Assembly: GCF_000307105.1 (NCBI RefSeq)
Contig: NC_018645.1
Span: 2,120,578-2,184,577, forward strand
Length of the DNA stretch: 64,000 bases
Direction: 5' to 3'
From: Desulfobacula toluolica Tol2
GTDB taxonomy: Bacteria; Desulfobacterota; Desulfobacteria; Desulfobacterales; Desulfobacteraceae
Part shown: positions 1 through 32,681 of the stretch, piece by piece
Position numbering within the stretch: the stretch's first letter is position 1
How the letters are laid out: each line of letters opens with the position of its first letter
Position numbers and translations under genes: made by a program
Notes under the pieces: model-generated
Told to the model about the DNA's origin: nothing
Seen by the model: the letters and a program-made list of their open reading frames with translations, nothing else
Databases searched by the model: none

Positions 1-491
1 GAATTGACCGGTTTATGGATGAACATCACAGTACAGGTCTGCCTCCCTTCTTGTGTAAAGGAGATACCGGGGTTCGCATGGGGCTTATGGGCGGTCAGTT
101 TATGACAACCTCTCTTGTGGCGGAAAACAGAACTCTTGCCATTCCGGCTTCCATTCAGTCTATCACATCGACGGCAGACTTTCAGGATATCGTCAGCTTT
201 GGCCTGATTGCCGGAAGAAAAGCCAGGAAGATTGTTGAGAATACCAACCATATACTCTCCTTTGAGTTGATGTGCGCTGCCCAGGCTGCGGATTTAAGAG
301 GTATTGAAAAATTGAGTCCTGCCGGTAAAATAATGCATGCAGCAGTTCGTGAAACCCTTCCGTACCTGGATCATGATAAAGTTTATATTGATCATATGGA
401 AGAACTCAAAGCCCGGATTGAATCAGGTGAGTTTGTAGAAAGAGTTGAAAAAGAAATTGGCGAACTATTGATTGTTCACGAAAAAGAATAA
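1..491 (+). CDS. Aromatic amino acid lyase/aminomutase, C-terminal part (5' end outside window)
   Basis: The frame is open from the first bases, so the gene begins before the window; about 160 C-terminal residues are visible. They match the C-terminal helical region of the MIO-dependent ammonia-lyase/aminomutase family and align with the complete HutH at 31107-32639 (PASIQSI against PASVDSI, CAAQAADL against CAAQGIDL). At the position where HutH has NKEDHVSMG this protein has DFQDIVSFG. The Glu-to-Gln change is the pattern of phenylalanine/tyrosine lyases and aminomutases rather than histidine lyases. The MIO loop lies outside the window, so lyase and aminomutase cannot be separated. A beta-amino acid transaminase-like gene follows 220 bp downstream, which favours an aromatic 2,3-aminomutase or lyase feeding that enzyme. 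Family certain, substrate inferred. Confidence 0.85.
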   Translation, partial: IDRFMDEHHSTGLPPFLCKGDTGVRMGLMGGQFMTTSLVAENRTLAIPASIQSITSTADFQDIVSFGLIAGRKARKIVENTNHILSFELMCAAQAADLRGIEKLSPAGKIMHAAVRETLPYLDHDKVYIDHMEELKARIESGEFVERVEKEIGELLIVHEKE

Positions 492-581
492 TAAAAGAAC
501 CCCCATGCCTTGATGGTAAAATAAAATATAAAAGTGGCGAGTGGGGAGAACTAAATACTGACTACTCAACATTCGTTACTT

Positions 582-695
582 TTATATAATTGCCACGGGC
601 AGGCCTTGGAAATTTATACTAAGATTGATCTCCTTGGTTTGCCTACAACAAAACATGAAAATCGCTGTTTGGGTTTGAAGACTTCAATATAAAAA
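582..695 (-). repeat. Dispersed intergenic hairpin repeat, copy A
   Basis: This is a member of a family of about 85-115 bp intergenic repeats. On the minus strand it contains GAAGTCTTCAAA, CCAAACAG, a TTTGTTGT tract, and GGCAAACC pairing across to a GGCCTGCC segment. Related copies lie near 7100, 11180, 14007, 17619 and 26384. It separates the lyase from the aminotransferase gene. Confidence 0.7.
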
Positions 696-711
696 TAACA
701 AGGACAATGCT

Positions 712-2049
712 ATGATTGAAGAGCAAATTGAAAAGAAAATTGAAGATGCATATAAGGAAAAATTTCCGGTTTCCAAGGAGCGTCATGAGCAACTTATCAA
801 TTATATTCCCGGTGGTGCGACCAGAAGCTTAAGTTATTTTAAACCTTATCCCATTCATATTGATTATGGACAGGGAGCGTATGTCTATACTCATGAAGGG
901 CATAAATTACTTGATGTCACCAATGCTTATGGAGCTATTGTCCATGGGCATGGTGATCCGGATGTTGTTCGGGCTGTTCGGGACGGTATTGCAAAGGGTT
1001 CTCAGTACTCTACCCCTACGGATGGGCAGTATAAGCTGGCAAAGCTCTTATGTGAAAGGGTGCCTGGTTTTGATAAGGTAAGGTTTTTGAATTCAGGAAC
1101 AGAAGCCACTTTGTTTGTTATGAGAACGGCAAGAGCTTATACCGGGAAAGACAAGATTCTGAAAATGATCGGCGGATTTCATGGAACCCATGACAGTGTG
1201 GCTGCATCAACAAAAAAGAATGTTATCACTGCCGGTATTCCAGAAGGAATGACCGAGGCTATTTTAGAAGTACCTTTTAATGACTTTGATGCCCTTGAAA
1301 AAACGGTTAAGGAAAATGCTTCTGAGCTGGCTGCCGTAATAATGGAACCTTTCCTTGGCGCCGGTGGCGTAGTCCTGCCAAAGCCCGGTTATCTTGAACA
1401 TGTAAGAAAAGTTACTTCGGATAATAACGTCCTGTTGATTTTTGATGAGATTTTTTCTTACAGGGTAAATACAGGCGGTTGCCAGAAACTTTTTGGCGTG
1501 ATTCCGGATCTGACAACGGTTGGAAAAGTTGTGGGAGGCGGGCTTCCCATTGGTGTGTTTGGTGGTAAAGAAGAGATAATGAATATCTTTTGCCATGAAA
1601 ACACGGAAAAGCCATTGTATCATTCAGGAACATTTAACGGGTATGAAACAGTTATGCAGGCCGGATATGCGGCTTTGTCCAAATATGATGAAGCTGCAGT
1701 GGCCTATGTAAATAAACTGGGGGATCAATTTAAAAATGGTCTTTTGGAAAGCTTTAAAGCCAACAGATTAAATATTCAGGCTAACCAGATTGGGTCTTTG
1801 CTCAATATTCATTTTGTCAATGAACCCATAACAAATGCTGATCAGGTTTTGAAATCAGAAGAACAGCTCCATCGGCTGATGCATTTGTCTTTATTGAATA
1901 AAGGGATTTTTACAATTCCAAGGGGATTGTTTATTTTGTCCACTGCAATTACAGAAGAAGAAATCGATCTTCTGGTCAATAAAATAGATGAAACTCTGAA
2001 AGAATTGTTGCCTTTGATTGAAGAAAAATATAACCATTTACTTTTATAA
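712..2049 (+). CDS. Class III PLP aminotransferase, beta-phenylalanine transaminase-like
   Basis: A 445-residue fold-type I aminotransferase of the glutamate-1-semialdehyde aminomutase/beta-amino acid transaminase branch. The PLP lysine is K272 in TVGKVVGGG, the pyridine-N aspartate is D245 in LLIFDEI, and NSGTEA (near 128) and GGFHGTHD (near 154) form the cofactor pocket. Compared from memory with Variovorax beta-phenylalanine aminotransferase, it keeps an arginine in the N-terminal ATRSL motif (R38) and the C-terminal PRG arginine near 400, both linked to carboxylate handling. ATG start with an ACAAGGAC ribosome site. Expected reaction: a beta-aromatic amino acid plus 2-oxoglutarate gives a 3-aryl-3-oxopropanoate. 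The BKACE gene downstream would use that product. A GSA aminomutase role is unlikely because no heme genes are nearby. Substrate is inferred. Confidence 0.85.
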   Translation: MIEEQIEKKIEDAYKEKFPVSKERHEQLINYIPGGATRSLSYFKPYPIHIDYGQGAYVYTHEGHKLLDVTNAYGAIVHGHGDPDVVRAVRDGIAKGSQYSTPTDGQYKLAKLLCERVPGFDKVRFLNSGTEATLFVMRTARAYTGKDKILKMIGGFHGTHDSVAASTKKNVITAGIPEGMTEAILEVPFNDFDALEKTVKENASELAAVIMEPFLGAGGVVLPKPGYLEHVRKVTSDNNVLLIFDEIFSYRVNTGGCQKLFGVIPDLTTVGKVVGGGLPIGVFGGKEEIMNIFCHENTEKPLYHSGTFNGYETVMQAGYAALSKYDEAAVAYVNKLGDQFKNGLLESFKANRLNIQANQIGSLLNIHFVNEPITNADQVLKSEEQLHRLMHLSLLNKGIFTIPRGLFILSTAITEEEIDLLVNKIDETLKELLPLIEEKYNHLLL

Positions 2050-2087
2050 TGAATTTAATTTAAAAGGATTTCCAAAAAGAGGAATAA

Positions 2088-2570
2088 ATGGTTCTGGATA
2101 AAATTGACAAACAGATTTTGAATACACTCCAGGAAAATGGAAAAACAACAAATTCTAAATTGTCTAAGATTGTCGGTATTTCTGCCCCTGCAACCCTTGA
2201 AAGGGTAAAGCGACTGGAGCTTGCAGGGGTAATCTCTCATTTTACAGCCATACTTGATCCTGAAAAAATCGGATTTTCAATCATGGCTATTGTGAATATC
2301 GGCTTAAGCTTGAGTAGCCTTTCTTCTGTGGCTGTTATAAAAGAAGAATTCACTGCTCTGGATGAAGTGATTGAGTGCTACCAGATTGCCGGTGCAAATG
2401 ATTTTATCTTAAAGGTGATTGCAAAGGATATTAAATCCTATGGTGAATTTATGAATATGAAGCTCACACAGATAGAAGGGATTCAAGTTGTTAAATCTTC
2501 TTTTGTGATTGATAATGTCAAAGATAAGAAGTTGCTCGTGCTTGATCTGGATGAGGAATACGAAGTGTAA
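2088..2570 (+). CDS. Lrp/AsnC family transcriptional regulator
   Basis: A 160-residue protein with the usual Lrp layout. The N-terminal winged HTH begins LDKIDKQILNTLQENGKTTN and is followed by a recognition helix near SAPATLERVKRLE. The C-terminal half is an alpha/beta RAM (ACT-like) domain that binds amino acids. It sits 38 bp after the aminotransferase and 37 bp before the BKACE gene in the same direction, so it probably senses the amino acid substrate and controls this operon. Members of this family commonly act as octameric activators or repressors responding to an amino acid ligand. No operator was identified. Confidence 0.92.
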   Translation: MVLDKIDKQILNTLQENGKTTNSKLSKIVGISAPATLERVKRLELAGVISHFTAILDPEKIGFSIMAIVNIGLSLSSLSSVAVIKEEFTALDEVIECYQIAGANDFILKVIAKDIKSYGEFMNMKLTQIEGIQVVKSSFVIDNVKDKKLLVLDLDEEYEV

Positions 2571-2607
2571 AAAAAATAATTTTTTTCAACGGGAGAATTA
2601 AAAAAAA

Positions 2608-3543
2608 ATGAAGAATAAAATAATCATTAGTGCTGCTATTACAGGATCTATTCACGTTCCAACCATGAGTGATTACCTTCCAATAACTCCTGACGAGATT
2701 GTGGAGGATGCGGTAAAGGCCCATGAGGCCGGTGCTGCCATTGCTCATCTTCATGTACGAAATCCTGAAAACGGGTTTCCATCGTCTGATCCTGAACTTT
2801 TTAAGGAAGTCTTGTCAAAAATAAAAGCAAGATGTGATATGGTACTTCAGATCACAACCGGTGGTGGTATGAACCAGACTACACCGGAAAAATTGATTCC
2901 TGTCAAAGAATTTGAACCTGAAATGTGTTCGTTTGATCCCGCACCGTTTAATTTCGGTATATTTCAGATTGCGGGCCGTTATAAGGAATACAAATATGAT
3001 TGGGAACCAGAATACTTAGAACTCTGCAAAAATATTTCTTTTAAACCCACATTCAGTGATGATGAGATTTATGGTAAAACCTTCATGGAAATAGGTACCA
3101 AGCCTGAATTTGAGATTTATGAATTGGGACATGTTTCATATGTTAAATGGCTTCTTGAAGAAAATTTGACAGAAGGACCTCCTCATCTCCAGTTTGTATT
3201 CGGTCCCATGGTAGGATGGATGACACCCTCGGTCAAACATTTGGTTTTAATTTATGATGAGGCAAAAGAAGTGCTTGGCGAAGGAAATTTTACCTGGTCG
3301 GTGGCAGCCGGTGGAAGATTTCAGATTCCCATCACCACGACTGCCATGGCAATGGGAGCACAAAATGTTCGAGTCGGACTTGAAGACTCTATCTATGCTG
3401 GCAAAGGGATACTGGCAAAAGCCAGTGCGGATCAGGTAAACATAGTTAAACGGATTGCAAAGGAATTGAGCCTTGAGCCTGCCACCCCTGAAGAGACAAG
3501 ACAGATCCTTGGGTTGAAGGGGCTTGATAAAGTTAATTTCTAA
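2608..3543 (+). CDS. Beta-keto acid cleavage enzyme (BKACE, DUF849 family)
   Basis: A 311-residue TIM-barrel protein of the BKACE family, typified by 3-keto-5-aminohexanoate cleavage enzyme (Kce). Family members condense a beta-keto acid with acetyl-CoA and release acetoacetate and the shortened acyl-CoA. The Zn-binding HLH motif is H47/H49 in AIAHLHVRN, and the third ligand Glu is probably in VGLEDSIYAGKG near residue 260. ITGSIHVPTMSDYLPITP is the usual N-terminal signature. There is no Kal ammonia-lyase or lysine-fermentation gene nearby, so the lysine route is unlikely. Beside a beta-amino acid transaminase, the expected substrate is a 3-aryl-3-oxopropanoate, which would give an aroyl-CoA such as benzoyl-CoA. 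Family firm, substrate inferred. Confidence 0.92.
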   Translation: MKNKIIISAAITGSIHVPTMSDYLPITPDEIVEDAVKAHEAGAAIAHLHVRNPENGFPSSDPELFKEVLSKIKARCDMVLQITTGGGMNQTTPEKLIPVKEFEPEMCSFDPAPFNFGIFQIAGRYKEYKYDWEPEYLELCKNISFKPTFSDDEIYGKTFMEIGTKPEFEIYELGHVSYVKWLLEENLTEGPPHLQFVFGPMVGWMTPSVKHLVLIYDEAKEVLGEGNFTWSVAAGGRFQIPITTTAMAMGAQNVRVGLEDSIYAGKGILAKASADQVNIVKRIAKELSLEPATPEETRQILGLKGLDKVNF

Positions 3544-3573
3544 ATTTGTGACATACTATTTGAGTGATCCCCG

Positions 3574-3661
3574 GAAACCTTTGAATAACATCCTTTTTTT
3601 TTCTGAAATTCAGACTACAACTTATTTGTTTTATGGAAAAATATCATTATTCAAAGGTTTC
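3574..3661. repeat. 15-bp perfect inverted repeat with 58-nt loop upstream of CoA ligase
   Basis: GAAACCTTTGAATAA at 3574-3588 pairs perfectly with TTATTCAAAGGTTTC at 3647-3661. The loop contains a smaller self-complementary segment (TCTGAA/TTCAGA). It lies in the 185-bp gap between the BKACE and ligase genes and may be a leader RNA structure or a processing site. It is not a simple terminator, because no U-run follows the second arm. Confidence 0.55.
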
Positions 3662-3728
3662 TAAAGATTTAAACAAGGAGATATGAGGTTAGCAGGATAC
3701 CATTAACTAAAAATTAAGGAGAGCACTG

Positions 3729-5309
3729 TTGAATTATTCAGGTTACGCTTCAATTCATGCCCGGCATAATCCGGAAAAAATTTGTCTGATTGAACGAACC
3801 CCGGAAACGGGTCAAAGACGATCTTTCACTTGGAAAGAATTTAACGATGAGATTAATCGAACAGCGAATTTTTTGGCAAATGAGATGGGGGTAAAGCATG
3901 GTGATTTTGTCATGCACCTTCAGAACAATTCCCTTGAATGGGTGTTGACGTATTATGCAATTATTCGGTTGGGTGCAGTTGTTGTTCCGCTCAATTTCCG
4001 TTTCGAAGGTACGGATGTCCTCTATGCAGCCGAAGTTTGCAATCCAGATGTTTTTATTCTTGGATCTGAATTTTTAAAGGTTGTTCAACCCATTCAAAAA
4101 GATCTTACTACCATTAAAAATTATATTTGCATCGGCGATGATGTACCGGATGACATGATTAATTTTAAAGCCGTGCAGAATTATGAAGATACTTCGGATG
4201 CATTGGTTGAAGTTGACAGGGATCATTCCCTGGCAATGATGTTTACATCTGGTACAACTGGCAAACCTAAACCTGTTTTACACACTCATTTTTCTTTGAA
4301 TAGTATAGCTGTGAGCAATGGGATGACATATTCTGTTCAAAAAGATGATAATTACCTGATTTTTCTTCCGTTGTATCATTCCGGCACCATGTTTTTATGG
4401 GCCCCTTTTTATGCCACAGGCGCAACAGGAACCATTGTAAAAGATTTGAAAAATCCCAAATCAATCATTGAAGCAATTGCTGCAGAAAAATGTACAGACA
4501 CTCTCTTTGTTGTCCCCATTGGTATTGCCATTCTTAATGCAATTGAAAATGGTGAGTTAAATCTGGATGACTATGATCTTTCATCATGGAAGTATATGGA
4601 AATAGGCGCACAGCCGGTACCTTATGATACCATGAAGCTGGTGGTGGAAAAACTGCCGTGTAGAGTATCCAATATCTATGGTATCACAGAGGGTGGCGGT
4701 GGAGGCAGCTTTAACCTCTATCCGGAAGATGTTCTGGAAAAACCGGGTTCCATTGGAAAACCAACCTTTGGTGTTGAAGCCAAAATTGTTGGTCCTACTG
4801 GAGAGGAACTTCCTGACGGATCTGTGGGTGAGCTGGTATTCAGGACACCCAGAATGATGCGGGAATATTATTCAAATCCTGAAAAAACGATAGAAACCCT
4901 GAAAGATGGTTGGCTTTATACAGGAGATCTATTAAGGAAAGACAAAGACGGTTATTTTTATATTGTTGATCGAATGAAAGATATGATTACCAGTGGTGGT
5001 GAAAATATTTTTCCGGTTGAAATTGAAGATGCGCTGATGGATCATCCTGATATAGATGATGTAGCATGTATAGGATATCCGGATGACCGGCTGGTGGAAA
5101 TAGTTCTTGCTGTTGTTCAAACCAAAGAAGGCAAACATTTGACTGAAGAAGATGTGATTGAGTTTGCAAAATCAAAGATATCTCTTTACAAGGTGCCTCG
5201 TAAGGTTCTTTTTGATCATGTTCCTCGAAATCCAACAGGAAAACTCATGAAACCACAACTTAGGGAAAAATTTACAGGTCGTAAGGAGGCGTTTAAACAA
5301 CTTGTTTAA
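3729..5309 (+). CDS. AMP-dependent acyl/aryl-CoA ligase (ANL superfamily)
   Basis: A 526-residue adenylate-forming ligase. The core motifs appear in order: FTSGTTGKPKP (A3, near 174), YGITEGGG (A5), GWLYTGDL (A7), DRMKDMITSGGENI (A8) and NPTGKLMK (A10, with the catalytic lysine). The start is TTG, chosen because AAGGAG ends about 8 nt upstream and MNYSGYASIHARHNPEK is a typical ANL N-terminus. It would activate a carboxylate with ATP and CoA. In this locus the candidates are an aromatic acid (benzoate or a cinnamate from the lyase) or the acetoacetate released by BKACE. Specificity cannot be read from the sequence. Confidence 0.9.
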   Translation: MNYSGYASIHARHNPEKICLIERTPETGQRRSFTWKEFNDEINRTANFLANEMGVKHGDFVMHLQNNSLEWVLTYYAIIRLGAVVVPLNFRFEGTDVLYAAEVCNPDVFILGSEFLKVVQPIQKDLTTIKNYICIGDDVPDDMINFKAVQNYEDTSDALVEVDRDHSLAMMFTSGTTGKPKPVLHTHFSLNSIAVSNGMTYSVQKDDNYLIFLPLYHSGTMFLWAPFYATGATGTIVKDLKNPKSIIEAIAAEKCTDTLFVVPIGIAILNAIENGELNLDDYDLSSWKYMEIGAQPVPYDTMKLVVEKLPCRVSNIYGITEGGGGGSFNLYPEDVLEKPGSIGKPTFGVEAKIVGPTGEELPDGSVGELVFRTPRMMREYYSNPEKTIETLKDGWLYTGDLLRKDKDGYFYIVDRMKDMITSGGENIFPVEIEDALMDHPDIDDVACIGYPDDRLVEIVLAVVQTKEGKHLTEEDVIEFAKSKISLYKVPRKVLFDHVPRNPTGKLMKPQLREKFTGRKEAFKQLV

Positions 5310-5433
5310 ATAATTTTTTTTTATTGGGCTTGACTTATTGTTGAAGTATGACGTAGAGTAAAACCCATTGACCATTCTAGTAAAATGAAAATTAGTTAAA
5401 GTAAAAATTAGTTGGATTCCAAAAGTTGAAACA

Positions 5434-5460
5434 GGTGCAAGACTTTTTAAGTCTTGCACC
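5434..5460 (+). promoter_or_regulatory. Perfect 12-bp hairpin between ligase and dctP
   Basis: GGTGCAAGACTT, a TTT loop, then AAGTCTTGCACC; every base of the stem pairs. It is followed by an A/T-rich stretch rather than a clean U-run, and the dctP ribosome site AGGAAAGG lies about 25 nt downstream. It may be an RNA-stabilising or partial termination hairpin setting the level of the binding protein relative to the enzymes. Confidence 0.6.
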
Positions 5461-5498
5461 ACAAATTATAAATTTAAATTTTTAGGAAAGGAACTAGT

Positions 5499-6575
5499 AT
5501 GAAGCTTGGCAAATGTTTAGTATTACTGCTTGTTTTGTTTGTTGGATCATTTATCGTTACGTCTTCTGTTTTTGCAAAAAAAGAAAGTTCGCTTGATAAA
5601 TGGAAACCGAATTTTGATCCCAAAGGAGCAAAATACAAATGCATTATTTCAAATGTTTCAACGCCAGCTCTGGTCGGGACATATGCCGGTTTTGAGATCA
5701 GGGATGAACTTTGGAAAAGAACAAATGGTCAGATCTATGTTGATTTTAAACCCCTATCAATTCTTGGTGGTGAAGTAGAGGTTTTAAACATGCTTCAGAT
5801 GGGTGCTGTTCAAGGTATGGGGGTGAGTTCTGTTGCTTCTACCAACCTTGGGCCCCGTTTTGGAATAGTGAACCTTCCTTTTCTTATCGACTCGTTTGAA
5901 AAATTAGATAATTTCATTGCCAACAAGAAATTGTTTGATCACTTCTTGAATGCCATGGATCATCAAGGAATTACAGGTCTTGATATCACGGGTTATGGAA
6001 ATTACGGATGGGCAACCACTGAGCCGGTTCAAACCATTGCAGACGCAAAAAAGATTAAATTCAGAACTGCCGAGGCTGCCGTGAACCAGTTAAGTTATCG
6101 AAACTGGGGGTTTAATCCTGTTTCCATGCCTTGGCCTGATGTTCAGATTGCTTTAAAACAAGGTGTTATAACAGGTTTGGATCATACACCAGCTGTGTGC
6201 AACCTGACAAAAAAATTTGAAGTGGCAAAGAATTTTACGCAATTAAATTATGCCCAGGGACTGTTTATCTGGATTTTTAACAAAGCCTGGCTTGCAAGGC
6301 TTCCCAAGGATTTGAGAGAAACATTTGTTTCCACTGTTCATGATGTGTGTGCTGAAAACAGGAGAAGAACAGCAACATGGGAAATGGAAAATATTGAATC
6401 TGCAAAAGCAAACGGGGTTGAATTTTTCAAGTTGTCTGAAGAGGAAATGAGAATCCTTAAAGATCAAAGCAAAGGGGCTTATGACAGGTATGCACAGGAA
6501 ATTAACCAGATCTATCCCGGCGATACCTATAAACCTTTGAATTTCTTAAAAGAAGTTCAGGATTTCTTGCAATAA
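5499..6575 (+). CDS. TRAP transporter solute-binding protein, DctP family
   Basis: A 358-residue periplasmic binding protein. It has a Sec signal peptide: positive MKLGK, a hydrophobic stretch to about residue 24, and a likely cleavage after SSVFA. The mature part carries the DctP fold, including the segment around VKFRTAEAAVNQ-like residues (near 190, IKFRTAEAAV), where family members place the Arg that binds the substrate carboxylate. A strong ribosome site (AGGAAAGG) precedes the ATG. It captures an organic anion and hands it to the DctQM membrane unit encoded downstream. From context the ligand is probably an aromatic or amino carboxylate, which is inference. Confidence 0.9.
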   Translation: MKLGKCLVLLLVLFVGSFIVTSSVFAKKESSLDKWKPNFDPKGAKYKCIISNVSTPALVGTYAGFEIRDELWKRTNGQIYVDFKPLSILGGEVEVLNMLQMGAVQGMGVSSVASTNLGPRFGIVNLPFLIDSFEKLDNFIANKKLFDHFLNAMDHQGITGLDITGYGNYGWATTEPVQTIADAKKIKFRTAEAAVNQLSYRNWGFNPVSMPWPDVQIALKQGVITGLDHTPAVCNLTKKFEVAKNFTQLNYAQGLFIWIFNKAWLARLPKDLRETFVSTVHDVCAENRRRTATWEMENIESAKANGVEFFKLSEEEMRILKDQSKGAYDRYAQEINQIYPGDTYKPLNFLKEVQDFLQ

Positions 6576-6617
6576 ATAACACTGGATTTTCATTCTAATT
6601 ATACAGGAATTAGGTTT

Positions 6618-7100
6618 ATGCTTGGGAAAACTTTAAAAAAATTAGACACTATTTTTACAAATGTTGAAGAGTGGACACTTTTTATTATTGTTATGGCGGC
6701 ATTAATGTCACTTTTTGCCAATGTTGTTTTGAGATACGGATTTAATTATACCCTTGCCTGGAGTGAGGAACTGGTTCGTATCGTGATGATTTATTCAACC
6801 TTTGTCGGGGCCAGTGTGGCTGTTAAACAGCGGGCAATGATCCGGATAGATGCTGTTGTCCAGATTTTCCCAAAGCTTAAACCGGGCCTGACACTTTATA
6901 CCAACCTGTTGATGCTTGTTTTTGCATGGATGATGGTATTCTATGGTTATAGAATGACTCATTTGCAGTTATTAACCCATCAGAAAACCATCATTATGCA
7001 GATTCCTCTTGTCATTGTTTATGCCATAATGCCTGTAATGGGCGTTATGATATTTATCCGGACGATTCAGGTAATTATTCAAGATATAAGATCTAAATAA
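6618..7100 (+). CDS. TRAP transporter small permease, DctQ family
   Basis: A 160-residue integral membrane protein with four predicted helices (about 20-40, 55-75, 92-112 and 130-150). The family motif region WSEELVRIVMIYSTFVGASV is present. It starts 42 bp after dctP and forms the small subunit of the sodium-coupled TRAP permease. The large subunit gene is 216 bp further on, because an intergenic repeat lies between them. DctQ and DctM genes are usually adjacent or fused. Confidence 0.9.
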   Translation: MLGKTLKKLDTIFTNVEEWTLFIIVMAALMSLFANVVLRYGFNYTLAWSEELVRIVMIYSTFVGASVAVKQRAMIRIDAVVQIFPKLKPGLTLYTNLLMLVFAWMMVFYGYRMTHLQLLTHQKTIIMQIPLVIVYAIMPVMGVMIFIRTIQVIIQDIRSK

Positions 7101-7290
7101 CGCTACGGGCAGACCGGACCATTTTATGCTATGATTTGGTCTTCTTAGGTTTGCCCATAACAAAATATGAAAGTCGCTGTTTGGATTTTTGAAAACTTTC
7201 ATATAAACTGCCATGGCAGATTGATCTGCCACAATAAAAAAATGAAAGAGATCTGATTCCAAGAGGTTAGAAGTTCTTTCATATAAAAAA
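7100..7290 (-). repeat. Dispersed intergenic hairpin repeats, copy B (two subtypes in tandem)
   Basis: Read on the minus strand, 7207-7290 is the 'GAAAGAACTTCTAACCTCTT' subtype followed by the palindrome GGCAGATCAATCTGCC. The part at 7100-7206 is the 'ATGAAAGTTTTCAAAAATCC' subtype, with ATGAAAGT pairing with ACTTTCAT. The same two subtypes adjoin each other at 26384-26610. The insertion splits dctQ from dctM. Confidence 0.75.
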
Positions 7291-7316
7291 TCAGATCTAA
7301 ACAGAAAAGGACCATC

Positions 7317-8609
7317 ATGCAGATCAGTGATTTGATTATTTTATGTATTCTTCTAGGTTGTATGACAACCTATGTACCGGTTTTTTTATGCCTGTTTTTT
7401 ACGGCAACCATAGGTTTTGTTGTTTTTCTGGATATGCCCCTGGCTCTTTTAGCACAAACGCTTTTCAGAAGTCTTGATAATTTCTCATTGGTGGTTGTGC
7501 TGTTTTTTATTCTTTGCGGTAACATCATGAGTAAGGGAAAGACCGTTGAAAAATTGATCAATCTGGCCAATGCACTGGTCAGCTGGTTGCCGGGAGGACT
7601 GGGAATGGCGGGTGTTATTGGCTGTGGTCTGTTTGGTGCCATTTCGGGCTCTACAGTTGCCACGGTGGTGGCACTGGGTGGGTTCATGATTCCGGCCCTT
7701 ATCAGAAACGGCTATGATGAGGATTATACACTGGGGCTTATGACTACCTCACCGAATTTAGGGGTTATTATTCCTCCGAGTATCAGTATGATCTTTTATT
7801 CAATGATCAGTAACGTATCCTTAGAGGGACTCTTTATTACAGGATTTGTTCCCGGTGTTCTCATCATTGGCTGTGTATGTCTTTATACCTGGCTAAAGTA
7901 TAGAAATAGAACAGATATCAACAGATTGCCCGCTCCGGATTTTATGCAGCTTTTTTCTATTTTTAAGGAAGGCTTCTGGGCATTCATGCTGATTGTCATT
8001 ATTTTCGGCGGCATTTTTTCCGGTATGTTCACTGCCAATGAAGCTGCTGTCGTTGCCAGTGTATATGCATTTTTTGTTGAACTGTTTATTTACAAGTCTA
8101 TAGATTTTAAAGATGTAAAAGAGATAACAGTCAGCTCTGCTGTAACAAGTGCAACTTTGTTGTTGATTGTTGCATCTGCAACCTGTTTTGGAAGATATCT
8201 GACGTTTGAGAATATTCCCAACAGGGTTGCGGAAGTTGTGGTGGCAAGCATTCAGTCGCCATTTGTCTTTTTGATGGCCATGAACATCTTGTTGCTTGTG
8301 ATCGGCATGTTTATGGATATTATTTCCGCCACGTTGATCTTGGGTCCGGTCTTTCTTCCCCTGCTTGGGCCGTTTAATGTGGATCCCATGCATTTCGGGC
8401 TTATTATGACCGTAAACCTTGCCATTGGATACTGTACGCCGCCTATGGGGGTGAGTTTGTTTATTACGGGTTCGCTGGCGAAAAGGGATATTATTTATGT
8501 TTCAAGGGCGGTAATGCCTTTTCTGGCTATCCAGATTGGGGTTCTTTTCTTTCTAACGTATTTTCCTGAAGTTGTTCTTTTTCTGCCCAGGTTCTTTGGA
8601 TATTTATAA
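7317..8609 (+). CDS. TRAP transporter large permease, DctM family
   Basis: A 430-residue membrane protein with about 12 hydrophobic helices. It has DctM signatures: GLFGAISGSTVATVVALG near 100, SPNLGVIIPPSI near 150, and a C-terminal NLAIGYCTPPMGVSLF repeat. It couples sodium influx to uptake of the ligand held by DctP. A ribosome site AAAGGA precedes the ATG. It closes the catabolic locus and is followed by a strong terminator 40 bp after the stop. Confidence 0.93.
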   Translation: MQISDLIILCILLGCMTTYVPVFLCLFFTATIGFVVFLDMPLALLAQTLFRSLDNFSLVVVLFFILCGNIMSKGKTVEKLINLANALVSWLPGGLGMAGVIGCGLFGAISGSTVATVVALGGFMIPALIRNGYDEDYTLGLMTTSPNLGVIIPPSISMIFYSMISNVSLEGLFITGFVPGVLIIGCVCLYTWLKYRNRTDINRLPAPDFMQLFSIFKEGFWAFMLIVIIFGGIFSGMFTANEAAVVASVYAFFVELFIYKSIDFKDVKEITVSSAVTSATLLLIVASATCFGRYLTFENIPNRVAEVVVASIQSPFVFLMAMNILLLVIGMFMDIISATLILGPVFLPLLGPFNVDPMHFGLIMTVNLAIGYCTPPMGVSLFITGSLAKRDIIYVSRAVMPFLAIQIGVLFFLTYFPEVVLFLPRFFGYL

Positions 8610-8648
8610 AAACAGCTAAAACGTCAGGTACTTTACCTGACAAATAAA

Positions 8649-8694
8649 AAAGCCGGTATTCATTAAGAAGTTTTCTTATGAATACCGGCTTTTG
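8649..8694 (+). terminator. Rho-independent terminator after dctM
   Basis: AGCCGGTATTCAT at 8651-8663 and ATGAATACCGGCT at 8678-8690 form a perfect 13-bp stem with a 14-nt loop, flanked by A-rich and T-rich tracts. It ends the catabolic operon and, read the other way, could also end the minus-strand gene at 8799-9356. Confidence 0.85.
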
Positions 8695-8798
8695 CTTGTT
8701 CTGTAATATTTATGTTGATGTATGATGTCCCTGACCTTGGATTTAGTGAACCCTTTCCTTAAACTGAATTAAATCCTGGGCCTATTTTTTATCCGGGG

Positions 8799-9356
8799 TT
8801 ATATCCCTTTATCGATGATGTTTTTGTCGTGTAAGAGTCTTTCCTGAATGCCCCTTGAGACTTCCCAGTTTTTTTCAAAATCATTCCAGAAATCTTTGTT
8901 ATCATCTTTCCAGCCTTTCCCAAAACGCTGGTTAAAATGATTCCCAAGCTTTTCAAACAAAAGTTTCCACACTGGTTTGCCCTGGTTTTTTTCTCCCAAA
9001 AGTTCATTGAGCAATGAATCAAGCTCGCTTAAATGTTCTTTTGAAAGATAGGAAATAGCTCCTTTTTTAATTGACTGCATCAAGGATTCCGGATTCAGAG
9101 AGTTGGCCGTTAACATAACAGCCGGAATATCTCTTTTTACGCATTCTTCCAACAGTTTGATTCCGTTAACGCCCATAATGTCAAGAATGGCAAGATCATA
9201 TTGTGTCTGGTGAATTTTTTCAGAAGCGGTTTCGTAGTCCTGTGCAATGTCCACTTTTGCTTCATCCAGAATTTCCTGTATGGTTTCAATTACATCCCAT
9301 TCATCGTCAACAGCCAATATATGTTTGTCTTTGAGAAAAGAACCGGTTTGTGTCAT
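8799..9356 (-). CDS. Response-regulator receiver protein with uncharacterised C-terminal region
   Basis: A 185-residue protein. Residues about 10-125 form a CheY-like receiver: the acidic pair in AVDDEWD, the phospho-acceptor Asp in LAILDIMGV, the Thr of VMLTAN and the Lys of YLSKEH. The remaining 60 residues are rich in Trp, Lys and Asp and match no output domain I recognise (no HTH, GGDEF or HD motif). AAGGAG precedes the ATG. No histidine kinase gene is nearby, so it is an orphan regulator that probably acts by protein contact. Confidence 0.85.
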   Translation of the reverse strand: MTQTGSFLKDKHILAVDDEWDVIETIQEILDEAKVDIAQDYETASEKIHQTQYDLAILDIMGVNGIKLLEECVKRDIPAVMLTANSLNPESLMQSIKKGAISYLSKEHLSELDSLLNELLGEKNQGKPVWKLLFEKLGNHFNQRFGKGWKDDNKDFWNDFEKNWEVSRGIQERLLHDKNIIDKGI

Positions 9357-9552
9357 TTTTTTTCTCCTTGTTAGAAAATATATAAGTCAAAAAATATATA
9401 AGTTAAAAGATATATAAAGGGATAAATGATATTTAGCTTAAAATAAAGTTGTCAGTATCCTTGATTTGAATATTAGATACTAGTTTTTTAAATTTTTTAT
9501 TAATACAAATAAGGTAATAAAAGCATCATGAAAAGTCAAGCTATTACAGGCG

Positions 9553-10632
9553 CTAAGATAAAAAATCCTTTCGGCAGAATGCGGTTTGGGGATGATCTGA
9601 ATAGGTTACCTCCATTGAGTGATCCTGCATCATTTCTACAGTGAGTAATTCATTCAAGATCAGTTCCTTTTCCTGATTGGTTGTGACTGGAAAACCATAA
9701 GGTATATTTTTATGTTTCAAGAGTTTGTCCGATGCTATCCGTTCATCAACAAAAACAAGGTGTTTTTTTAATCTGTTTTCCATATGTTGGTTGGACAGAT
9801 CTATAATATTTTCTTTGATCCGGGGTATGGATTCGTTAAAATCATTATCAATTTCAAATCCGATTGTATTTCTGGCTGAAGCCATGGATGCGGCCATGGT
9901 GGTTCCTGTGCCGACAAAAGGATCAAGTACATTATCCCCTTTAACAGAATACATATTGATCAGCCGGTAGGCCAGTTCAAATGGAAAGGCAGCACTTTTG
10001 TCTCTGGAAGCTTTGTCAATAAGTCCTTGACGAGTTCCTTTGATATCAAACCAGATGTCTGAGAAAAAAGTATTTCTTTCTTCCCAGAATATTGCGCTTT
10101 GTCTTCTGTTGAGTTTTTCAGGATTGCTCTTAAATTCGCGTTTTCCGCCTTTTCTGACAATCAGGATATATTCGTGTTCCAAGGTGACATAAGCGCCTGC
10201 CGGCAACATACCTGATCCCATGAATTTATTGGGCGCGTTGGTCTGTTTTCTCCATATTATTTCAGGCAGAATTGAGAACCCAAGCTTGACAAGATATTGA
10301 AGAATCCTTGAATGGTTTGAGTAAACTGCAAAATTTGAGTTGATTGTTCGTGTGGCATCTGCGATATTGATACAGGCAAATCCGCCGGTTTTTAAGACCC
10401 TGAAAATTTCATCCCATACCGAATCAAGTATTTTGTGCATAAGTTCAAATGCTTTGTGGCCGTCTTTTTTATTAAGGGCTTTTGCAATTGCATTATTCTG
10501 AGAAGAAAAGATATCATCCCACATCTCAATCATGGGATAGGGAGGCGATGTAACAATAAGGTCAATAGTTTTTGATGGTATCAAGTCAAGATTGCTTGAA
10601 TCCTGAAAAAAAATTGTATGGGTTGTTTTCAT
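9553..10632 (-). CDS. Solitary DNA methyltransferase (N4-cytosine/N6-adenine, beta class)
   Basis: A 359-residue S-adenosylmethionine-dependent DNA methyltransferase. The catalytic motif IV TSPPYP lies near the N-terminus (IDLIVTSPPYP) and the SAM-binding motif I DPFVGTGTT lies near residue 235. That order is the beta class, which includes N4-cytosine and N6-adenine enzymes. The start at MKTTHTIFFQDSS is preferred; an in-frame extension to 10665 has a poor leader and falls outside the conserved domain. No restriction endonuclease is adjacent, so it may be an orphan regulatory methylase or a relic of an R-M system. About 100 C-terminal residues after motif I are unassigned and may help recognise the target. 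Confidence 0.85.
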   Translation of the reverse strand: MKTTHTIFFQDSSNLDLIPSKTIDLIVTSPPYPMIEMWDDIFSSQNNAIAKALNKKDGHKAFELMHKILDSVWDEIFRVLKTGGFACINIADATRTINSNFAVYSNHSRILQYLVKLGFSILPEIIWRKQTNAPNKFMGSGMLPAGAYVTLEHEYILIVRKGGKREFKSNPEKLNRRQSAIFWEERNTFFSDIWFDIKGTRQGLIDKASRDKSAAFPFELAYRLINMYSVKGDNVLDPFVGTGTTMAASMASARNTIGFEIDNDFNESIPRIKENIIDLSNQHMENRLKKHLVFVDERIASDKLLKHKNIPYGFPVTTNQEKELILNELLTVEMMQDHSMEVTYSDHPQTAFCRKDFLS

Positions 10633-10808
10633 AAGTGTTATTCTCAGTAATAAAATTTGGGTCAAACCATAACAAGTTTATGATTTTTTGTATAGCCTCT
10701 TCAGATTCAGTGTTTAATAACCCTCAAGACTGATTTGTCCAAAATCCAATTGCCCAAAATTTGTCTGCCGAAAAGTTGTCCGGTTGATACTTGTAGTAAA
10801 GGCACTTA

Positions 10809-10941
10809 GGCGCAATATCATAAATAAATAGCCCGCAAGAAAATTCTGTAACTGCTGTCTGAAATTTGGAAATAGTGGGCTGTGACCAAACCGTTTATAG
10901 ATAAACTGAGCCTATGGAACATTTTAATTTGATATTGCGCC
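10809..10941 (+). mobile_element. 133-bp MITE-like element, copy 1
   Basis: The ends are perfect inverted repeats, GGCGCAATATCA and TGATATTGCGCC, with TTA directly repeated on both sides (10806-10808 and 10942-10944). A second copy of exactly 133 bp at 60937-61069 has the same internal sequence with about ten differences and is flanked by TAA on both sides. There is no coding capacity. Three-base TNA duplications resemble those of some IS5-group transposases, so it is probably a non-autonomous derivative of such an element. Confidence 0.8.
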
Positions 10942-11179
10942 TTAAATATTTAAATGTATGGATTAATTGTGTCTGTCTTTTAACCATTCCAAATATAGTT
11001 TGAAAAATAATTTTAGTTTTTTTAAAGTTCAGTCTTAGGTTGAACGATATCATAGATATCTGGACAGGTATTGTTAGTATTAATTCAATTTGATTGTGTC
11101 CGGCTTATATTCTTGAGCTTTTTTTTGTACTGCAGGTTTATTTTCTTGGCAAGAACCATTTAATGGGTGACCTGTATGC

Positions 11180-11274
11180 TATAACTGCCACGGGCAGACT
11201 TGGTCTTTCACCTTGGTTTGCTCACAACAAAGATTGAAAGTCACTGTTTGGATTTTTGAAGACTTTCATATAAA
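11180..11274 (-). repeat. Dispersed intergenic hairpin repeat, copy C
   Basis: On the minus strand it carries TATATGAAAGTCTTCAAAAA, CCAAACAG, ACTTTCA and the paired AAACCAAGG / CTTGGT-type arms before TCTGCCCGTGGCA. It lies 79 bp upstream of the gene at 11353. Apart from this repeat and the MITE, the 720 bp between 10633 and 11352 show no gene. Confidence 0.7.
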
Positions 11275-11352
11275 CATAACTTAAGTTCGAAAATTGAGGT
11301 ATCAAATTAAAGAGTCTCAAACAAATGAAGTTTGGAAGGGAAATATAAAAAC

Positions 11353-11883
11353 ATGAAAACATCAATTATTTCAGGACATTCGTTGGATTATAAACTGAAT
11401 CAATTTTCAGCTTCTGTTAAAAGTGATCGCAGTATTCAGGCAAGCAAAAAATCCATGGAATTGAACATGATATCCAGTCAATTCAGTATCAGCGTCAAAT
11501 CCCAAGCCTTTGAAAATTTTAACAAACAGGGCATCTTGCTGAAGGAAAATTTTTCTTTAGAATCCATGGATTTGAAACTTGACGCTCCTGGTTCTGATTT
11601 AAATCAAATTTCAGATCCTCAGTCGCTTTTTGGCGAAAATGATTATTGGGGAGTCAAAAAGACATCTGAACGTATCTCCGATTTCGTTCTTCAGGGGGCG
11701 GGTGATGATCTTGAGCGTTTGAAATCAGGAAGAGAAGGTGTTTTGCGGGGATTTCAGGAAGCTGAAAAAGCATGGGGCGGCAAATTACCGGATATTTCAT
11801 ATGGAACCATGGAGAAGAGTCTTGAGGCCATTGATGAAAAAATTCGAGAGCTTGGAGGATCTGTGATAGATCTTTCTACTTAG
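11353..11883 (+). CDS. Uncharacterised 176-residue protein
   Basis: A soluble protein without signal peptide or membrane segment. The N-terminal 80 residues are rich in Ser and Gln (VKSDRSIQASKKS, SSQFSISVKSQ) and look disordered. The C-terminal half is predicted helical around ERISDFVLQGAGDDLERLKS and GFQEAEKAWGGKLPDIS. That half faintly recalls the DUF5610-type domain, but I cannot confirm it. The start is the ATG at 11353, 12 nt after GGAAGGG; a TTG seven codons upstream would overlap that ribosome site. It stands alone between a repeat and the nitrilase gene. Confidence 0.6.
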   Translation: MKTSIISGHSLDYKLNQFSASVKSDRSIQASKKSMELNMISSQFSISVKSQAFENFNKQGILLKENFSLESMDLKLDAPGSDLNQISDPQSLFGENDYWGVKKTSERISDFVLQGAGDDLERLKSGREGVLRGFQEAEKAWGGKLPDISYGTMEKSLEAIDEKIRELGGSVIDLST

Positions 11884-12017
11884 AAATTTTTATCTGTACA
11901 AAATAGCCTTAGGATAAAAAGATTGACGATGTAAGGGTGAAATTATATGGTGAGGAGGTGTTGATTCATAGTAAGGCTTTGAAAGGTAAAGCTTGAAAAA
12001 AAGGAAGATTGAGAAAG

Positions 12018-14127: not shown

Positions 14128-15177
14128 ATGGAAAAAAGTAATACCGTATTTTTGACACAGAAAGTAAAAGCATCCGGTTGAGCTGCCAAACTTGATCCAG
14201 GGACGCTGGATCGAATTGTTCAAGGACTTGAAATAAAATCGCATCCAAACCTGATTGTCGGACTTGATTCGCCGGATGATGCGGGTGTATATAAGCTGGA
14301 TTCACAGACAGCCCTTATCCAGACTCTTGATTTTTTAACACCGGTTACTGATTCACCTTATGAATTTGGTCAGATTGCTGCTGCTAATTCTTTGAGTGAT
14401 GTCTATGCCATGGGGGGCAGACCCATAACAGTTATGAATATCGTCTGTTTTCCCAGCTGTGATCTTGCTGAGGATATTCTGGCCAAAACCTTAAAGGGTG
14501 GCATGGATAAGATTAATGAGTCTGGTGCCGTTCTTGTCGGCGGTCATTCAGTGGAGGATGATGAGTTTAAGTACGGGCTTTCCGTTACCGGTATTGTTCA
14601 CCCAGATAAGGTATTGACCAATGCTGCAGCTGCCACAGGGGATGCTGTTGTTTTAACAAAACCTGTGGGAACCGGAATCATGTCAACGGCCATAAAGGCA
14701 AAGCTTGCCACAAAAGAGAATATAAATGAATCCGTGTCGGTCATGTCCCTGTTAAACAAAGCTGCAGCCATGGTAATGACACAATTTAAGGTCAATGCCT
14801 GTACAGATGTTACAGGATTCGGACTGGCAGGGCATTTGCTGGAAATGGCAAAAGGATCAAAAAAAGAGATTACTCTCCATACCTCAAAGGTGCCTTTTTT
14901 AAACAGTGTGCTTGATTTTGCAAATATGGGAATGGTGCCGGCGGGGGCTCATAAAAACCGGAAGTTTTTTGAAGCATCGACTCATATTGATCCGGCTGTT
15001 GACAGGGCCGTGGTTGACCTGATGTTTGACCCACAAACATCAGGTGGTCTGTTGATCAGCCTGAACAAAGACATTGCCGGGGCCTGCGTTGAGAAAATGA
15101 AAATCAATGGTCAAAACGCCTGGATAGTTGGTGAAATTACCCGTGACAGCAATGCTGGATTTTTGAGAATGATTTAA
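14128..15177 (+). CDS. selD: Selenide, water dikinase (SelD) with in-frame UGA selenocysteine
   Basis: SelD makes selenophosphate from selenide and ATP. Reading from the ATG at 14128 gives MEKSNTVFLTQKVKASG, then UGA (14179-14181), then AAKLDPGTLDRIVQGLE, and onward without a break to the stop at 15177. That totals 349 residues, close to the usual 347. The UGA falls at the catalytic Cys17 position of E. coli SelD (SGxxxK context), so it encodes selenocysteine-18. A SECIS-like hairpin follows immediately. Later motifs also fit: LDSPDDAGV-type Asp residues, ANSLSDVYAMGG, and TDVTGFGLAGH near 230. A gene call that treats UGA as stop would begin at 14392 and lose 88 residues. AAAAAAG leader only, so the ribosome site is weak. 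Confidence 0.95.
14194..14212 (+). promoter_or_regulatory. Bacterial SECIS hairpin for selD
   Basis: GATCCAG (14194-14200), loop GGACG and CTGGATC (14206-14212) form a perfect 7-bp stem. The loop begins with GG and lies about 19 nt after the UGA, as expected for SelB-dependent elements inside the coding region. Two further A-U pairs can extend the base if one G bulges. Confidence 0.8.
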
Positions 15178-19289: not shown

Positions 19290-20594
19290 TTAAATTTTTC
19301 GATTATCAATGACACGTACTGCTTTTCCTTCGCTTCTTTCAATAGTCTTTGGCTCAACAAGCATAACTTTTGCCGAAACTCCCAGATACTCTTTGATATC
19401 ATTGGAGATTTTTTGTTCCATGGTCTGAAGAGTCTTTATTTCATCACTGAAAAGTTCTTCATCAATTTCAACTTTTACGGTAAGGCTGTCAAGATTTCCT
19501 TTTCTGTCAACCAACAGCTGATAATGGGGAAGAATTTGTTTTGTCTCCATTAAAACACTTTCAATCTGGGACGGAAAGACGTTAACGCCTCTAATAATAA
19601 GCATGTCATCGGTACGGCCCGAGGGTTTGTTCATCCTTATATGGGTTCTTCCGCAGATGCAGGGTTCAGGATTTAAAGAAGTAATGTCTTTGGTCCGATA
19701 CCGGATTACAGGAAAAGCTTCTTTGGTGATGGATGTGAACACCAGTTCCCCGGTTTCACCATATGGAAGAACTTCTTGTGTTTCCGGATCAATAATTTCA
19801 ACAATAAAGTGATCTTCAAAAATATGCAGGCCCTTTTGTTCTTCGTAACATTCAATTGCGACGCCGGGGCCGATGACTTCACTTAGTCCGTAAATATCCA
19901 TGGCTTTCAGGTGAAGTTTTGATTCAAGTTCTTCTCTCATATTTTCAGACCATGGTTCTGCACCGAAAATTCCGGATTTAAAATAAAGGTTTTTGAAATC
20001 AACGCCCATTTCATCGGCAACCTCTGCAAGATGAAGAACATAAGAAGGGGTACCGGTGAGTATGGTCGGTTTGAAATCCTGCATAATGGTAATCTGACGT
20101 TTGGTATTGCCGCCTGAAACCGGTATGATGGACGCACCAAGTTTTTCCGCACCATAATGAACCCCCAAGCCACCTGTAAACAGCCCATATCCAAAGGCAT
20201 TGTGGATAATATCACCACTTGTTCCGCCAGCAGCAGCAAAGCATCTTGCCATAAGCCTGGCCCAAGTATCAATATCCCTTTTTGTATAACCCACAACTGT
20301 AGGTTTTCCTGTAGTGCCTGAAGATGCATGGATACGAACAATGTTTTCCATGGGTACGGCAAACATATCATAGGGATAGTTGTCCCTTAAATCCAGTTTG
20401 GTTGTAAAGGGCAGCCGTTTGAGATCATCAAGGCTCTTGATATCCGAGGGCTTAATCCCGGCTTTGTCAAATGTTTTTTTGTAAAAAGGAACAGTGACGT
20501 AAATCCGTTCAATGGTTGTTTGGAGTCTTTTTAGCTGAATCGCTTCAATGCCTTCCCTTGGCATTGTTTCGGAATCAATATTATAAATGGGCAT
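19290..20594 (-). CDS. paaK: Phenylacetate-CoA ligase
   Basis: A 434-residue ANL enzyme of the short PaaK type, lacking the first part of the usual N-terminal domain. The P-loop is [15 protein letters not shown] near 92. [10 protein letters not shown] near 240 and the C-terminal [20 protein letters not shown] complete the signature. It activates phenylacetate or related arylacetates (from phenylalanine, tyrosine or tryptophan breakdown) with CoA and ATP. It lies between a crotonase gene and an ACT gene in the same direction, consistent with anaerobic aromatic acid metabolism. Confidence 0.93.
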
Positions 20595-29045: not shown

Positions 29046-29176
29046 TGGTTTTCAGGCTCCATGTTAGTTTTTTTTGGGGTCTTGTTTCTGATTTTAATCA
29101 TTTACTCAACTTTCGGAGTTGGCAAAAAATAATAATTCCTTCATTTTTTTCATGACCTTCATGGTAAAAAATGTTT

Positions 29177-30880: not shown

Positions 30881-31011
30881 TGTTTTCCCTCTCAAGATGG
30901 TTGACATTTGAGTTTGAAATGGATACTGCTCGTTTTTACAAGTATAAATATGATATCAAGTGGTTTTTAAAGTCAACAACTATCGCTATGATTGGACAGA
31001 TGAATTAATGG

Positions 31012-31050
31012 TTGTATCAAGCATATTTGTATCAAATATACTTGATACAA
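31012..31050. promoter_or_regulatory. Palindromic operator between divergent hutU and hutH
   Basis: TTGTATCAAG and CTTGATACAA bound a 39-bp near-perfect palindrome. Inside it, CATATTTG and CAAATATAC continue the symmetry, and a third TTGTATCAA lies near the centre. It sits 57 bp before the hutH start and 132 bp before the hutU start, so one regulator could control both. The half-sites resemble the TTGTAT-type half-sites of HutC-like GntR repressors. No hut regulator gene is in the window. Confidence 0.8.
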
Positions 31051-31106
31051 GAATGCTTGGGTCAAAATATGAACCGGTTTCTTAAATTCATGCGGGGGCA
31101 GGAACA

Positions 31107-32639: not shown

Positions 32640-32681
32640 TACTGATCTGGGTGTTGGGTCCTGTGGGCGTTATCAATCATA

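Follow-up and report, generated by a model that had tools for sequence, protein, structure and literature searches.

How a sulfate reducer could bring an aromatic amino acid to benzoyl-CoA is the question raised by a gene block of Desulfobacula toluolica Tol2. The block lies at the start of the window, by which we mean the whole stretch of 64,000 nucleotides analyzed (2120578-2184577 of NC_018645.1, the single 5,197,905-base contig of the host replicon). The initial annotation had listed a 4-methylideneimidazole-5-one (MIO) enzyme, a transaminase, an Lrp regulator, a beta-keto acid cleavage enzyme (BKACE), a coenzyme A (CoA) ligase, and a tripartite ATP-independent periplasmic (TRAP) importer. 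According to the open reading frames of the window and profile matches, all of them are present on the plus strand in this order. We propose, with moderate confidence, that the block is a catabolic cassette which would convert phenylalanine via beta-phenylalanine and benzoylacetate to benzoyl-CoA and acetoacetate.

In this route, the MIO enzyme would isomerize L-phenylalanine by shifting its amino group to the beta carbon, and the transaminase would turn beta-phenylalanine into 3-oxo-3-phenylpropanoate (benzoylacetate). BKACE would then react benzoylacetate with acetyl-CoA to yield benzoyl-CoA and acetoacetate, which would spare the ATP of a benzoylacetate-CoA ligase and trap the easily decarboxylated keto acid at once. 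Benzoyl-CoA, on which anaerobic aromatic degradation converges, would enter the ring-reduction pathway marked by BamA. As to the other genes, Lrp is the probable sensor of the amino acid, the TRAP importer would take up the aromatic substrate, and the CoA ligase would be an accessory enzyme, its most likely substrates being aryl acids (phenylacetate, or cinnamate formed by the MIO enzyme as a by-product). The substrates, the direction, and every reaction step in vivo are predicted from sequence.

What the data show are the gene families, the conserved key residues, the synteny, and the co-occurrence with BamA. Among solved structures, AdmH (3unv) is closest to the MIO protein (E 1.9e-138; 225 of 501 aligned residues identical), and we take AdmH to be a phenylalanine aminomutase. 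The tripeptide TSG of the prosthetic group and the catalytic Tyr (Y59 of the host protein P0001, aligned to AdmH) are both in place. Twenty positions, with presumed pocket-lining residues among them, were compared in AdmH numbering, where the prosthetic group counts as three residues. The two proteins agree at 78-81, 104, 108, 216, 320, 323, 356, 424, 427, 428, 455, 456, and 459 and differ at 107, 231, 421, and 431; the residues matching AdmH Y78, L104, V108, L216, Y320, R323, F428, and F455 are thus all identical in the host. At the position of His93 of tyrosine aminomutase, both carry Val, and hence phenylalanine is favored over tyrosine as the substrate. Eight NCBIfam models match the MIO protein, headed by that for D-beta-Phe-forming aminomutases (TIGR04475; 663.7 bits, below its cut-off of 800); tyrosine 2,3-aminomutase (TIGR03832) gives 445 against 501.

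Histidine ammonia-lyase was considered for the MIO gene and rejected, as TIGR01225 scores 458 against 539.15 and the host has a separate true HutH (697.6) as well as HutU. Both belong to a Hut cluster at 27807-33416 of the window, whose remaining members we take to be histidine-degradation genes.

The best solved relative of the transaminase is 6k8h, a Sphaerobacter omega-transaminase which accepts beta-phenylalanine; it also aligns with the beta-transaminase 2yku and the beta-phenylalanine aminotransferase 4ao9. The PGGxTR motif is present as PGGATR, and its Arg aligns to R36 of StoTA (6k8h), the proposed carboxylate binder. As HemL proteins in the PDB score about equal to the beta-amino-acid transaminases, we base the name on motif and context and not on score alone. 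An assignment as HemL itself (glutamate-1-semialdehyde aminomutase) was rejected, with TIGR00713 at 350.2 against a cut-off of 527.3. Judged in this way, the enzyme likely acts on beta-amino acids.

The BKACE protein covers the profile PF05853 completely (1-274 of 274), far above the gathering cut-off of 24.8 bits, and shares the TIM-barrel fold of the solved members; a single-sequence fold prediction was of no use, its predicted local distance difference test score (pLDDT) being 37.6. Active-site residues were mapped onto BKACE15 by alignment. H47, H49, E259, R255, and E169 are kept in 20 of 20 sequences of the same clade and in 77 of 77 other BKACE sequences, and H47, H49, and E259 are presumably the Zn ligands. 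E169 is equivalent to E171 of BKACE15, a catalytic base with experimental support (PMC11961710). In the published overview of an activity screen, benzoylacetate is listed as a substrate of one BKACE subgroup, G3 (PMC4922564, passage on Table 7). Elsewhere in the host, a second BKACE-like gene survives as a remnant with a broken frame (G000:C1:802698-803055).

The core consists of three genes (MIO enzyme, transaminase, and BKACE). We called their presence in 86 genomes of the family with strict E-value limits and found BKACE of this clade in 48, the transaminase in 45, and the MIO gene in 44. BKACE and the transaminase occur together in 45 genomes, BKACE without it in three, and the transaminase alone in none; for BKACE and the MIO gene, the numbers are 43 with both, five with BKACE only, and one with MIO only. 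In four of these five (G003, G004, G021, and G023), MIO fragments of 84-91% identity were found, at a contig edge in the first three; the fifth is G490, the only one of the 48 carriers in which neither partner of BKACE was found. Forty of the 48 carriers have the three genes next to each other in the same orientation, three of these cases (G004, G021, and G023) resting on the short MIO fragments. Apart from G490, the non-adjacent genomes (G003, G007, G012, G018, G482, G491, and G492) carry one partner gene on a separate contig. A chance neighborhood was rejected on the basis of this synteny.

Homologous loci without the MIO enzyme and the transaminase had been named as evidence that would speak against the route. 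Within the family, the three genes stay together. Outside the clade, such loci are common, but they are other BKACE genes: among the best 80 BKACE loci of the GTDB contig collection, three, 80-81% identical and titled Desulfobacteraceae or Desulfobacterales, carry the MIO gene and the transaminase. None of the other 77, whose identity is about 51% at most, has a MIO match; a transaminase match of 23-26% occurs in four of them, and all 77 belong to other BKACE clades. In 395 genomes drawn across the phylum, a MIO match at E<=1e-130 was obtained in the host only. As far as these searches reach, the cassette appears to be a property of one family, seemingly one of sulfate reducers.

The proposed product would link the cassette to BamA (TIGR03200, the ring-cleaving hydrolase), which was detected in 42 of the 86 genomes at E<=1e-60, in 39 above the curated cut-off. 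BKACE and BamA occur together in 39 genomes, BKACE only in nine, BamA only in three, and neither in 35 (Fisher p 2e-12, a value inflated by relatedness, as no correction for phylogeny was applied). For the 42 genomes with at least 90% completeness and at most 5% contamination, the corresponding numbers are 19, three, zero, and 20. In genus g8, BKACE is present in two of 19 genomes and BamA in exactly those two. In G030, the clearest individual locus, the core runs in the same direction as BamA (476.2 bits, cut-off 464.45) and Had (TIGR03201; 482.0, cut-off 338.65). The order, all in one direction, is thiolase, small Zn-ribbon-type protein, Had, hydrolase, short-chain dehydrogenase/reductase, BamA, DctP, DctQ, DctM, MIO enzyme, EamA-like exporter, transaminase, and BKACE. 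The names of the Zn-ribbon-type protein, the hydrolase, and the exporter are our assumption from family recognition. BamA, whose frame is shorter than usual, lies 390 bp upstream of the TRAP genes, and neither CoA ligase nor Lrp adjoins the core. The exporter gene between MIO enzyme and transaminase is found at L046 9796-10719 (-).

The genes around the core are less constant. In 20 fetched regions, Lrp was found in 18 and the CoA ligase after BKACE in 17. A TRAP importer of varying type is linked to the cassette in 17: it is orthologous in ten, of an unrelated type downstream in six, and of an unrelated type upstream in one (G030); two of the remaining regions stop where the contig ends, and L060 is no cassette. 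Conversely, in the Desulfococcus-like G044, homologs of CoA ligase, DctP, DctQ, DctM, and response regulator lie together at about 2.78 Mb (identities in the table), and no MIO enzyme, transaminase, or clade BKACE was found in the region read, nor a MIO enzyme or clade BKACE genome-wide. The ligase and TRAP half thus looks like a module separable from the core. Because the G030 cassette lacks the ligase beside it and the G044 cluster has the ligase without the core, the ligase probably stands outside the main line; both genomes weaken it as an obligatory step. Ligase and TRAP importer had been included in the pathway set, and both are in the block, the importer being exchangeable.

The TRAP identities of 75, 80, and 90% fit the 74-90% published in a comparison with D. 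toluolica (PMC5109826). Together with cluster position and content, they lead us to take G044 to be Desulfococcus multivorans. As no second TRAP resembling DctP, DctQ, and DctM of the block was found in the host genome, the importer is probably DctM9Q9P9 of Tol2. The region L185 of G044 also contains two frames of 689 aa about 6 kb apart (86-2152 and 6523-8589) which share their first 110 residues; we take them to be 3-hydroxyacyl-CoA dehydrogenase-like.

Other readings of the block have to be weighed against the proposed route. An unlikely one, though the best of them, is that import already supplies a beta-amino acid (beta-phenylalanine or beta-tyrosine of natural-product origin), with the MIO enzyme reversed or on a side branch and transaminase and BKACE as the main line. 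The linkage of an importer in 17 of the 20 fetched loci despite its changing type is in line with this, and MIO aminomutases are reversible. However, 43 of the 48 BKACE carriers have the MIO gene and four more have fragments of it, and sediments probably contain few beta-aryl amino acids in free form. The linked TRAP type, moreover, is published as linked to phenylalanine and phenylacetate by proteomics (PMC5109826).

Slightly less probable is a lyase route as in enterocin biosynthesis, in which the MIO enzyme would be a phenylalanine ammonia-lyase, the CoA ligase would form cinnamoyl-CoA, and beta-oxidation encoded elsewhere would lead to benzoyl-CoA, leaving transaminase and BKACE to serve another compound. 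EncP, which we take to be akin to AdmH, is the precedent, and the ligase adjoins BKACE in most fetched loci. EncP is described as a lyase feeding benzoyl-CoA (PMC8773403). Such a route would leave unexplained why transaminase and BKACE travel with the MIO gene, why G030 keeps all three without a ligase beside them, and why the host operon has no hydratase, dehydrogenase, or thiolase.

We give the same low probability to a BKACE clade which no longer performs acetyl-CoA-dependent cleavage or which uses a non-aromatic keto acid. It is suggested by clade-specific substitutions (N-M-G-S replaced by D110-P111-A112-P113 and G by W204) and by BKACE groups without BKACE activity in the published screen (PMC4922564). 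On the other side, the clade retains the metal ligands and the base for which there is experimental support, and it is statistically tied to BamA.

More doubtful still is the same route acting on tyrosine or another aryl amino acid to give 4-hydroxybenzoyl-CoA or a related aroyl-CoA. The enzyme families tolerate substituents on the ring, but Val stands at the His93 position, as in AdmH. Hence, from the initial annotation, which had allowed for benzoyl-CoA or 4-hydroxybenzoyl-CoA, we prefer phenylalanine and benzoyl-CoA to the tyrosine branch. Finally, a ligase forming beta-phenylalanyl-CoA, a Kat-like HemL homolog converting it to benzoylacetyl-CoA, and a thiolase would be a possible order, since Kat, a HemL-like 3-aminobutyryl-CoA transaminase, converts the beta-phenylalanine thioester (PMC3149608), but this is very improbable, as the Arg proposed to bind a free carboxylate is conserved (Kat may share it), the ligase is absent beside the core in G030, and BKACE would have no role.

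Several points weigh against the proposed route itself. The MIO, transaminase, and BKACE proteins all stay below the NCBIfam equivalog cut-offs of the models listed; for BKACE, Kce (NF052387) scores 212.6 against 382 and the 3,5-dioxohexanoate:acetyl-CoA enzyme (NF053538) 349.9 against 430. D110 (19 of 20 clade sequences) and A112 (20 of 20) replace an Asn and a Gly which every one of the 77 outgroup sequences has, and the substrate or even the chemistry of this altered-loop clade may differ from that of its relatives. Nine of the 48 BKACE carriers have no BamA match, three of them of good quality (G013, G014, and G020). Outside the family, BamA occurs without the cassette in eight of 23 order-level genomes, as expected if the route is an optional peripheral one. 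The consumption of acetoacetate is a further point: TIGR02429, a CoA-transferase subunit, had no match at E<=1e-30 in 82 of the 86 family genomes, the host included, and matched in four; other CoA-transferases and acetoacetyl-CoA synthetase were not searched. atoAD genes are reported in D. toluolica (PMC5109826), and they may belong to another CoA-transferase family. According to the literature, D. toluolica degrades phenylalanine via phenylpyruvate, phenylacetate, and phenylglyoxylate, and AtoAD is proposed for the final reaction (PMC5109826). In the literature searched, we found neither activity nor expression data for the core genes. On balance, the earlier proposal of a route from an aromatic amino acid to aroyl-CoA stands in part: the kinship to AdmH, the Arg of the transaminase, the zinc and catalytic residues of BKACE, and the co-occurrence with BamA argue for it, and its individual reactions stay predictions.

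The proposed logic resembles lysine fermentation, in which an alpha-amino acid becomes a beta-amino acid, is deaminated to a beta-keto acid, and is cleaved with acetyl-CoA by a BKACE-family enzyme, Kce, to acyl-CoA and acetoacetate (PMC3149608). Two aminomutases and a dehydrogenase act there, whereas an MIO enzyme and a transaminase would act here; the product is amino-alkyl there and aryl here, and the Kce score of the host protein stays below its cut-off. Triacetate acetoacetate-lyase of phloroglucinol degradation is likewise a BKACE in anaerobic aromatic breakdown (PMC10470551). It works after ring opening on 3,5-dioxohexanoate, whereas BKACE here would precede ring reduction, and the score in its model NF053538 is again too low.

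The MIO protein shares most compared residues with AdmH, its best solved relative. From general knowledge, AdmH serves antibiotic biosynthesis, whereas the hosts here carry BamA and TIGR04475 remains below its cut-off. Antibiotic biosynthesis is also the role of EncP (PMC8773403). The beta-phenylalanine aminotransferases 4ao9, 2yku, and 6k8h are sequence relatives of the host transaminase, including an Arg aligned to the proposed carboxylate binder of 6k8h. The known catabolic route of beta-phenylalanine is thought to end by CoA ligase and thiolase, and here BKACE would take the final step. In Aromatoleum, a CoA ligase, followed by thiolysis according to general knowledge, finishes the route, whereas BKACE would transfer CoA without ATP. 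Common to both is benzoylacetate on the way to benzoyl-CoA, in Aromatoleum by acetophenone carboxylase and benzoylacetate-CoA ligase (PMC4729919, PMC5214803). The phenylacetate/phenylpyruvate cluster of D. multivorans, taken as G044, shares the homologous CoA ligase, TRAP, and response regulator, close together, and differs by the lack of the core described above.

The MIO gene begins 1132 bases upstream of the window and comprises 540 codons (G000:C1:2119446-2121065). The convergent response regulator behind the TRAP genes probably belongs to the block because it is homologous to the one in the G044 TRAP cluster.

Table. Features of the gene block in window coordinates
Feature	Position	Strand	Evidence or remark
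MIO aminomutase/ammonia-lyase, C-terminal part (frame 3-491)	1..491	+	Best solved relative AdmH (3unv); TIGR04475 663.7 bits
Pyridoxal phosphate (PLP) class III (HemL-type) transaminase	712..2049	+	PF00202, 193.2 bits; likely for beta-amino acids
Lrp/AsnC-type regulator	2088..2570	+	Profile match
BKACE, distinct clade	2608..3543	+	PF05853, 299.3 bits
AMP-forming acyl-CoA ligase, TTG start as listed	3729..5309	+	G044 TRAP-cluster ortholog, 73% identity
TRAP solute-binding protein DctP	5499..6575	+	80% identity to G044
TRAP small permease DctQ	6618..7100	+	75% identity to G044
TRAP large permease DctM	7317..8609	+	90% identity to G044; next best in own genome 30%
Response regulator, convergent	8799..9356	-	Homolog in G044 TRAP/CoA-ligase cluster, 111/185 residues identical (60%)

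An Rfam scan of window positions 1-12000 gave no match, and promoter and terminator scans yielded chance level only. By eye, a gapped repeat of about 90 bases was seen at 592-690 and 7101-7208, in two intergenic gaps of the host operon which are 220 and 216 bases wide. The second gap measures 12-35 bases in the relatives that were read, and the first is below 50 in some of them and 120-150 in others. No third copy of the repeat core was found in the window within three mismatches, and there are no ungapped repeats of 30 or more bases within 1-9400. Further along the window, 11 kb from the cassette, lies a PaaK-like phenylacetate-CoA ligase gene (19290-20594, minus strand; TIGR02155 637.4, cut-off 646.3), adjoined by an enoyl-CoA hydratase gene. 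The start of a selenophosphate-synthase-like frame at 14392-15177 looks short; an in-frame upstream TGA would presumably fit a selenocysteine-containing SelD. Two IS66 transposase copies (44517-46049 and 53412-54944) apparently have the same translation.

The enzyme families, the in vitro cleavage of benzoylacetate by a BKACE, and the lysine logic are known; what appears to be new is their combination and the position that it would hold in the anaerobic breakdown of aromatics. In agreement with the initial annotation, which knew of no pathway joining these steps, we found no description of a phenylalanine, BKACE, and benzoyl-CoA route in the literature searched, which did not cover the 2013 D. 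toluolica genome paper, where the genes may be mentioned. Anaerobic phenylalanine degradation as described so far runs via phenylpyruvate, phenylacetate, and phenylglyoxylate. Its last step to benzoyl-CoA in sulfate reducers is given as unclear for D. multivorans, and AtoAD is only suggested for D. toluolica (PMC5109826). The cassette has no bearing on D. multivorans, which appears to lack the core. If our proposal is true, Desulfobacula would have a route bypassing phenylglyoxylate, for which the step to benzoyl-CoA has only a tentative assignment in this genus. AtoAD is reported to increase on phenylalanine, and this could then be due to acetoacetate set free by BKACE, although an increase on phenylacetate is described as well (PMC5109826). 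If the importer is DctM9Q9P9, the published proteomics already ties the importer of this locus to phenylalanine and phenylacetate. The benzoylacetate activity listed for BKACE could gain a physiological role, and an inexpensive enzymatic link between beta-phenylalanine and benzoyl-CoA would be at hand. We are evenly balanced on a generalization, namely that this whole branch of sulfate reducers would use an aromatic counterpart of the lysine-fermentation logic to degrade phenylalanine, and that a new BKACE clade adapted to benzoylacetate would be its ATP-free entry to benzoyl-CoA. For the hosts which carry it, the three-enzyme cassette bypassing the phenylglyoxylate step, statistically tied to BamA across the family, is a testable gene set.

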